From positions 54,559,357-54,623,356 of the forward strand of contig OZ025250.1 in NCBI GenBank assembly GCA_964019135.1: 64,000 nucleotides of DNA. The letters are read 5' to 3'. The notes beneath the pieces are model-generated. The model was not told the DNA's origin. It was given only the letters and a program-made list of their open reading frames with translations, and ran no database searches. This DNA is from Arenicola marina (Eukaryota; Annelida; Polychaeta; Arenicolidae). The position numbers were made by a program, and so were the translations under genes. Position 1 is the stretch's first letter, and the number at the start of each line of letters is the position of its first letter. This document shows, in pieces, positions 1,453 through 2,834 of the stretch.

Positions 1453-1628
1453 GCTTAACCAACTTGGACGTGGTGAAGATGATGACATCTGGCAAGCTAC
1501 ATGTGAAGCCAGCAGAATGTCCCGACGACCTGTATTCCATAATGGTGACATGTTGGGCTACGGACCCGGAGAACAGGCCTAGCTTCCGTCAATTGGCGGC
1601 GAGAATGGCGTCGCTGCGGCACAGGTAA
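1453..1628 (+). CDS. Kinase module 1, last exon (arm A): C-terminal part of tyrosine kinase domain
   Basis: After the acceptor CTGTCTCCAG the exon encodes GLTNLDVVKMMTSG and then the [12 protein letters not shown] signature of the C-terminal helices of protein tyrosine kinases. The entry phase is 1, matching exon 53550-53678 of arm B. The frame ends in RHR followed by TAA at 1626-1628. That TAA is embedded in AG|GTAACT, a strong splice donor after base 1624. If the donor is used, translation continues in phase into the exon at 2770. The earlier exons of this module are left of the window. The arm B exon is the same length and differs at 7 of about 58 residues. Whether the stop or the donor is used cannot be decided from sequence alone. 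Confidence 0.8.
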
Positions 1629-2769
1629 CTGGCGAGAGAAAGGACCTCTGTTAGGGCCAAAAAAAGTCATAGTGACGAAAACGTCACACGTTCTGAGCCA
1701 TCTAGAAGTAAATGTACAGTTTCACAATGTGCCTCGATCGTCGTGTCTATTGACGGAGCTATGAAAATATGAGGTAGCAACTTTTCAGTTTCAGATATAT
1801 TTAAATGCTTTCATAAATGATAGCATATCGGGTATCACTCCCCCCCCCCCACCGCCATCCAGCCCTCAGAACCTTCTACTTTCCGAAACCTTAGATTTTC
1901 TTATTTGCACCCAAGGGTTCTCCAAGAGATCTCCAAATTGTCAACAAACCACTCCCTTAGCCCCGAGTGGCCCCGCCCCGTCTCCTTCAGAAACGTCACT
2001 CGTGGTTGTGTGAGCGATAACCGGGATGGTTGAAGTCAAAGTTAAAACTGTATATTTCATTCTAACAAGGGATGACGCTTTGGTCACTATGATGTTATGG
2101 CTTCCAACAGACGTCTATGAGAGTGTGTACTCGTGATGTGCATGACGTGGCAACATGGAGTGCCCACCCTGACAGATGCCGTCCAATTTCAAAATATTAT
2201 TATTAGGCTTATTAACTTGGTGGTACTTGAGAATATATCGTTGTGCATAATATTTAGAAATGTAAATTTTACTTAAAGCTACCAATGCAGCAATTTGTCG
2301 CCTACATTATGATTGTCAAGGTGTTTGGAGAAACGTCCTGGCCCCATTGTGTGACTGTGTAAATGTTAAATCTATGCAACGTAGATATGTTATAATGCAA
2401 AAACGAAATTGATGCAATGCACACGAAAGTCACACTTTTCCGCACGCGATGCACCAGTTTGGTCCGAACCATGTTGCTTCACATTATCATAACAGCTTTC
2501 AAAGCTTGTTATGCATCATGCACATCATGTGTGTACCTCTGCACTCGTAACCTTAGGAGATCAGTTCCATTCAAAACATTTCAGAAGCGACAGCAAAAAG
2601 TTATGTGACTGTATATGACGACGAAATTGAAGTACGAAAAAGACTATGTACACCTACCGACATTTTGTATCGTTCCAATATCTACCATGTGCTAAGGTTT
2701 TGCAATGAACAATATTTGTCAGTTGCCTAATATGTAGAATATTTATATACATGTTTTTTTGTGATACAG
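1629..2769 (+). other. Spacer or intron between kinase modules 1 and 2 (arm A)
   Basis: No coding exon was seen. There is no AATAAA or ATTAAA on the + strand here. It begins with a good donor (GTAACT) and ends with a polypyrimidine tract and acceptor (TTTTTTTGTGATACAG). Bases 2470-2620 resemble 385-540 in the preceding intron, a trace of an older repeat or tandem duplication. Confidence 0.5.
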
Positions 2770-2834
2770 CGAAGATATGAACATGCAGCAATCTGCCACG
2801 GCAAACTTCTCTATCTGCGAGAAACCAGACCCAG
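2770..2834 (+). CDS. Module 2 arm A exon 1: N-terminal linker
   Basis: It starts after the acceptor GTGATACAG and ends at donor GTAGGT. In the open frame ATG lies at 2777 and again at 2783 ([12 protein letters not shown]). The residues before the ATG (completing codon, Glu, Asp) are also open and in phase with the module 1 donor at 1624. The arm B homologue has the same 65-nt length but ATA instead of the first ATG. Confidence 0.7.

Follow-up and report, generated by a model that had tools for sequence, protein, structure and literature searches.

A candidate fused gene of two Src-type SH3-SH2-kinase modules in Arenicola marina, JAK-like in layout only

The window analyzed here is a 64,000-nucleotide stretch of the Arenicola marina genome (C3:54559357-54623356). 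Within it lie two inverted arms, A (1 to ~13000, plus strand) and B (~53540 to 41034, minus strand). Arm A is very probably one fused gene, a novel two-kinase form of the Src module that is JAK-like in layout only. The single-gene reading was adopted because the joined frame is intact, the phases match, the splice sites are conserved, the modules occur in pairs and the arrangement recurs on four large contigs. The last exon of module 1 would be spliced to the exon at 2770, giving a single SH3-SH2-TK-SH3-SH2-TK protein, and a ribosome would meet the 'stop' at the end of module 1 only on retention of the intervening intron. A tandem protein of this kind had been proposed in a sequence-only reading of the same DNA, and the proposal gained support: the donor is retained even where the stop is lost, two divergent copies of the linker exon have no in-frame ATG, and the last module 1 exon is paired with module 2 in 18/18 strong copies listed on C3.

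Gene model of arm A and its inter-module junction

Exons were named SH3a, SH3b, SH2a, SH2b, L and K1-K4 in module 1, and E1-E10 in module 2. The first 9 modelled exons of arm A module 1 lie left of the window and were read from fetched flank. Within the window (all plus strand), K4, the last kinase exon of module 1, occupies 1453..1624. It is followed by the linker exon E1 (2770..2834), the two halves of the module 2 SH3 (E2, 2978..3071; E3, 3691..3786), the two halves of its SH2 (E4, 4305..4402; E5, 4885..5034), the linker with the Gly-rich loop of the kinase (E6, 5519..5680), and the kinase exons carrying VAIK and alpha-C (E7, 7590..7852), HRDLAARN and DFG (E8, 8539..8692), APE (E9, 9792..9920) and the kinase end with the tail DPAYDQY and the stop TAG (E10, 11399..11601). 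The 20 exons of the model give 944 aa in one uninterrupted frame, in the order SH3-SH2-TK-SH3-SH2-TK, with AG 5' of every exon and GT 3' of all except the last.

Exon phases run in parallel through the two modules (SH3a/E2 1-2, SH3b/E3 2-2, SH2a/E4 2-1, SH2b/E5 1-1, L/E6 1-1, K1/E7 1-0, K2/E8 0-1, K3/E9 1-1), as would be expected for tandem duplication of one Src-type unit. The last exons differ: that of module 2 continues into a tail and stop, and that of module 1 breaks off at a phase-2 GT. A search for the first coding exon of module 1 did not find it. One N-terminal candidate, a transmembrane-like ORF 5' of arm A, was dropped for want of a match in any other unit. Arm A was inspected for an N-terminal Met-Gly myristoylation site, and its E1 reads MNMQQ, not MG.

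K4 ends in the phase-2 donor CAG|GTAACT. The letters around position 1624 are CGG CAC AG|GTAACT, and read-through gives CGG CAC AGG TAA; gatacag precedes 2770, and the joined frame continues AG|C GAA GAT ATG. It had been claimed that the TAA exists only if the donor is not used, and that the exon at 2770 has an acceptor, begins in the complementary phase and is open before its ATG. Letters and phases agreed with this (gatacag|CGAAG, phase 2 out of K4 and 2 into E1), E1 leaving in phase 1 and containing two ATGs. The K4 donor scored 10.0 bits on a matrix of 57 donors of this double-kinase family, 3 of them misplaced (E7 of U8, E7 of C18, K2 of L017). Of the GTs in the window, 0.1% score at least as high; this donor is more than chance. 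The spacer (1625..2769) is best read as the intron between the modules. As had been noted, neither AATAAA nor ATTAAA was found in the spacer of either arm.

Paired units and their junctions across the genome

Copies were searched for in the organism's own genome (867 Mb, 762 contigs). The K4 search gave 83 matches in all, with 18 strong K4 copies on C3 among those listed; L029, a cross-hit to the last exon of module 2, and L031 were left out of this count. Other rows were removed as cross-hits between modules (L29+14 in the K1 list, and E7-E9 rows at most loci). All 18 strong matches on C3 were paired with a downstream match to the module 2 SH2, and divergent paired units were present on C18, C10 and C12. 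In eight C3 units, only part of module 1 was seen within the 10 kb fetched 5' of module 2. Module 2 past its SH3 was read in five C3 units and in the C18 unit, the others being known there from search matches. Further kinase exons are arranged in same-strand pairs on C12 (27.26-27.48 Mb and 9.55 Mb; pair members ~7-9 kb apart) and on C10 (5.2-14.3 Mb), which suggests that much of this kinase expansion is of the double kind.

The phase-2 GT at the end of K4 was retained in 18/18 C3 copies and in the C18 copy. Any phase-2 GTRA donor (GTAA or GTGA) spells TAA or TGA in frame, so the in-frame stop is a by-product of the donor, and the conservation of donor and stop was compared for this reason. 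Six divergent junctions were examined (C18, three on C10, two on C12), and the phase-2 GT was present in 6/6. It is accompanied by a stop at C10:6.05 Mb (GAT|GTGAGA, TGA), C10:13.98 Mb (TAG|GTGAGC, TGA), C12:27.27 Mb (CAG|GTAAAA, TAA) and C12:9.55 Mb (AAC|GTAAAT, TAA). At C10:5.96 Mb (5.956 Mb) the junction is TCG|GTTAGT in phase 2, where TTA replaces the stop and 14 further codons are open. The donor is weak at C10:6.05 Mb (-0.3 bits) and modest at C10:5.96 Mb (3.9 bits). If the stop alone mattered, a G ahead of it would be expected in ~1/4 of diverged lineages (an estimate that takes the bases as equal); it was observed in 6/6 outside C3.

E1 was found with its acceptor, donor and open frame in 18/18 C3 copies, and at least one of its two ATGs was kept in each of the 17 C3 copies whose letters were inspected. 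The E1 homologues of C18 (71 nt, read by eye as ENKNTLRSSTVYPTSLVDPGQDP) and C10:6.05 Mb (68 nt, reading EADKAGNYATPVDVLPVPRGDP; recognized by eye, its acceptor lacking a good pyrimidine run) are open, have the right phases and contain no in-frame ATG; both lengths are 2 mod 3, as is 65. An ATG start in E1 is therefore not a family-wide trait. No E1 homologue was identified at C10:5.96 Mb or at the two C12 loci, and only a putative, ATG-containing E1 at C10:13.98 Mb. An E1-type exon would be required at the divergent loci that were read, because E2 starts in phase 1 there.

These junctions bear on whether, beside a fused main mRNA, intron retention or an internal promoter also gives isoforms of module 1 only or module 2 only. 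Such isoforms would be compatible with fusion, and are possible though rather unlikely. With the intron retained, translation would end cleanly at a stop in all 18 C3 copies and in C18, and ATGs stand in the 17 inspected C3 E1 exons, but the stop follows automatically from the donor and neither stop nor ATG is kept in all lineages. As for the fused gene, we infer that the K4-E1 junction is used in the main transcript.

Spacer, completeness of module 1 and arm B

It is highly improbable that the arm holds two head-to-tail genes, with module 1 ending at its TAA and module 2 starting from an ATG in the exon at 2770 under its own spacer promoter. The E1 ATGs of the C3 copies would suit this arrangement, as would the good conservation of the last ~600 bp 5' of E1 among them (0.868), but ten of 14 other introns span a range that includes the latter value, and promoter-like conservation before E1 was rejected once set against these introns. 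Identity of the spacer among C3 copies was 0.864, that of the ten introns 0.81-0.88; the remaining four (0.59-0.74) fell below the spacer, three of these sets including cross-hits. No convincing match of the C18 spacer to the C3 spacers was obtained with blastn (best E 0.20), and in the same comparison the C18 K4 (4.6e-14) and E1 (0.001) did match C3. Two divergent E1 exons without an in-frame ATG (C18, C10:6.05 Mb) and the missing stop at C10:5.96 Mb also count against separate genes, as do the conserved E1 acceptor and the splice sites of the spacer itself: the K4 donor was the sole donor common to 11/11 aligned C3 copies of the K4-E1 interval. These 11 copies were also examined for an alternative 5' exon in the spacer, and no other donor of at least 6 bits was common to at least four of them. 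Weaker donor-like sites, a point in favor of two genes, were common to up to 9/11 copies at 2 bits and 8/11 at 4 bits, and true donors of this family can score as low as 2-4 bits. Module 2 was seen without module 1 at only one locus among the copies listed (C3:53.944 Mb; L031, L029), and this one is broken by a stop in its SH3 exon.

Polyadenylation signals were counted in the same spacers, L027 being outside the count. AATAAA was present in 0/17 C3 spacers and once in C18, and ATTAAA in 5/17 and once in C18. Past the module 2 stop, AATAAA was found at +883, +894 and +1054 nt in 3/3 C3 units with 2 kb read, and none was found in C18 (2 kb) or U8 (951 nt). The contrast between spacer and module 2 end is weak, because several C3 spacers are shorter than 883 nt. 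A processed (intronless) copy of K4-E1-E2-E3 was sought across the whole genome, and none of 52 matches extended more than 4 nt across any junction (40/54 candidates scored).

Both modules were in one full frame in 3 units (A, U8, L022+33), which are those fully testable without a known lesion. In 7/18 C3 units (A, U8, L022+33, L023-L026), each of the ten exons modelled for module 1 could be placed intact, and K2-K4 were retained in 18/18. The module 1 SH3 was seen in 10/18 C3 units, the others being partly fetched, and was not seen in C18. Placement with standard sites failed for module 1 exons in B, L014, L020 and L021, and for one in L028, which falls at the edge of the fetched stretch. dN/dS was calculated from Nei-Gojobori counts pooled over non-independent pairs, and the values are therefore rough; L014, a duplicate of L29+14, was taken out of these sets and of the donor matrix. 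Within C3, dN/dS was 0.30 for the module 2 kinase, 0.46 for the module 1 kinase, 1.02 for K4 and 0.85 for E1 (both nearly neutral), and 1.21 for the module 1 SH2. Against C18, it was 0.24 for the module 2 kinase, 0.42 for the module 1 kinase and 0.43 for K4. Module 1 is under constraint, though looser, and low synonymous divergence in parts of it may reflect gene conversion. That module 1 is dead sequence, a set of decaying tandem duplicates beside module 2 as the sole working gene, is scarcely credible: the deletion in arm B, the unplaced exons, an HRN in place of HRD in L015 and the SH2 and K4 ratios without constraint among C3 copies point that way, but the kinase ratios within C3 and against C18, the seven units with ten intact exons and the retention of K2-K4 throughout C3 argue against it.

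Other features of the units were recorded. The module 1 N-terminal exon, compared over 9 units, had a dN/dS of 2.76 on few differences, which would be consistent with positive selection on the N-terminal tyrosine region. U8 and C18 have a GC donor after E7 in place of GT (CAG|GCGAGA and CAG|GCAAGG). L028 (8-2773) contains many repeats of the 3' end of SH2a of module 1 (SYLVRGEQG), and a similar-looking short-unit satellite, judged by eye, occupies the 5 kb ahead of module 1 in the C18 unit (L030, 1-5400).

Arm B had been noted to repeat the arrangement of arm A. This held for the splice sites (donor after 52551, acceptor before 51764), but the arm is damaged and is no intact second example. 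On the minus strand, the N-terminal, SH3 and SH2 exons of its module 1 span 55130..59595 (59595-59509, 58186-58084, 57479-57375, 56002-55908, 55285-55130), followed by kinase remnants at 53550..54908 (K1, 54908-54772, 5'-truncated, 137 nt; K2, 54079-53929, with DCG; K3, 53678-53550) and K4 with the same donor (52551..52722). Compared with unit U8 (C3:54.64 Mb), the missing stretch comprises the linker/Gly-loop exon and the start of K1. E1 (51700..51764) has ATA for its first ATG and retains the second, and E2-E10 of module 2 lie at 43863..51559, with E10 placed at 44038-43863, where a 1-nt gap relative to arm A shifts the frame. Arm B is a decaying copy or the product of assembly errors; it carries the same junction and is not an independent working gene.

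Repeats were seen in and between the arms. Tandem 94-nt units occupy the intron before E6 in arm B (window 48752-49313) and in U8 (unit 14737-15375); they repeat the E6 acceptor and first codons, with 5 partial copies in arm B, 7 in U8 and none in arm A. The N-terminal exon of arm B module 1 lies in tandem repeats ~1 kb apart, adjoining an N gap (window 58411-60535). Two 1.7 kb blocks, 99.9% identical (13632-15339 and 15540-17247), lie near an N run and reflect either very recent duplication or an artefact of assembly. Between the arms, long ORFs (17827-20053, plus strand; 23492-27276, minus strand) resemble by eye a LINE-type reverse transcriptase and endonuclease.

Catalytic state and comparison with known kinases

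The two arm A modules were scanned separately with Pfam, and SH3_1, SH2 and PK_Tyr_Ser-Thr were above cut-off in both. For module 2, 13 of the 14 best PDB rows carried the name Src, Hck or Fgr, and the remaining one just 'Tyrosine-protein kinase'; for module 1, an EGFR chain (two matched stretches) came first, followed by Src and Hck chains. The 60 best PDB matches shown for each module included no JAK chain, and Pfam found no FERM in either half of the modelled arm A protein, the modelled part of which excludes the far N-terminus. Of the earlier suggestion of a JAK-like Src-family relative, the layout therefore stood, with both modules of Src type, but JAK kinship did not.

Module 2 of arm A keeps VAIK, HRD, DFG, an activation-loop tyrosine and a tail tyrosine, and its kinase looks active. 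DPAYDQY aligned with the Src tail tyrosine at the alignment edge, and the tail varies among copies. In module 1, the alpha-C Glu is replaced in all 17 K1 exons read (A, S or V; T in C18; aligned by eye), the DFG position reads DCG in 18/18 C3 copies and DVG in C18, and the Gly loop is altered in the 13/13 L exons read (AKGNFAS or GKGNFAS). Module 1 keeps the VAIK Lys (VALK in L020 and L024) and the HRD Asp (HRN in L015). It had been described as catalytically altered, which the alpha-C and DFG positions bear out, and it is best called pseudokinase-like.

We infer that module 1 is a pseudokinase or very weak kinase serving as an in-cis regulator and an SH2/SH3 docking unit, and that module 2 is the active enzyme in a Src-type clamp formed by its own SH3-SH2. 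E1 would be a linker of ~21-23 residues, and module 1 ahead of it would add a second SH3-SH2 pair and the altered kinase domain. By analogy with JAK, module 1 could keep module 2 in an inactive state, and paired phosphotyrosines are possible ligands of the two SH2 domains. YVNV/YVNM and PYVEV tyrosines occur in the exons 5' of the SH3 of module 1 and are possible docking or autophosphorylation sites.

On balance, we lean narrowly towards the view that Src parts were assembled into a JAK-like layout independently in this lineage, by fusion of an N-terminal pseudokinase module to an active one. On this view, the family is large, with 18 units on C3, one on C18 and several on C10/C12, and has been amplified in tandem arrays much as immune or recognition genes are. 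Control of a tyrosine kinase by a pseudokinase next to it in the chain has its textbook example in the JAKs. If the view is correct, a second system of this kind, built independently from Src modules, would reveal what such control requires, and one genome would supply many natural variants for testing it. A further question is what such a large tandem family recognizes.

The order SH3-SH2-TK in both modules is that of the Src family (Src, Hck, Fgr; SrcM group in the available part of PMC8662651). No tandem SH3-SH2-TK-SH3-SH2-TK protein was named in the literature searched, and the available parts of PMC8662651, PMC4177888 and PMC8211107 do not mention one; annotated protein models of this kind may nevertheless be present, unnamed, in databases. 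Module 2 aligns with Src end to end, up to the position of the tail tyrosine, and module 1 likewise without the tail. The Arenicola protein differs from the Src family in having two complete modules in one predicted chain, the first of them without the alpha-C Glu, the DFG Phe and the regulatory tail. Syk and ZAP-70 have two SH2 domains followed by a kinase. As in these, two SH2 domains per chain could read doubly phosphorylated ligands, but here they are parted by a whole kinase domain and each has its own SH3. The JAK family is built as FERM-SH2-pseudokinase-kinase. The resemblance to it lies in an altered kinase domain N-terminal to an apparently active one in the same (predicted) chain. 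In contrast to the single SH2-like unit of JAK, two SH3 and two SH2 domains are present here, with an SH3-SH2 unit ahead of each kinase, and FERM is absent from the modelled part. As judged from sequence, the likeness to JAK is one of convergent layout and not of kinship.
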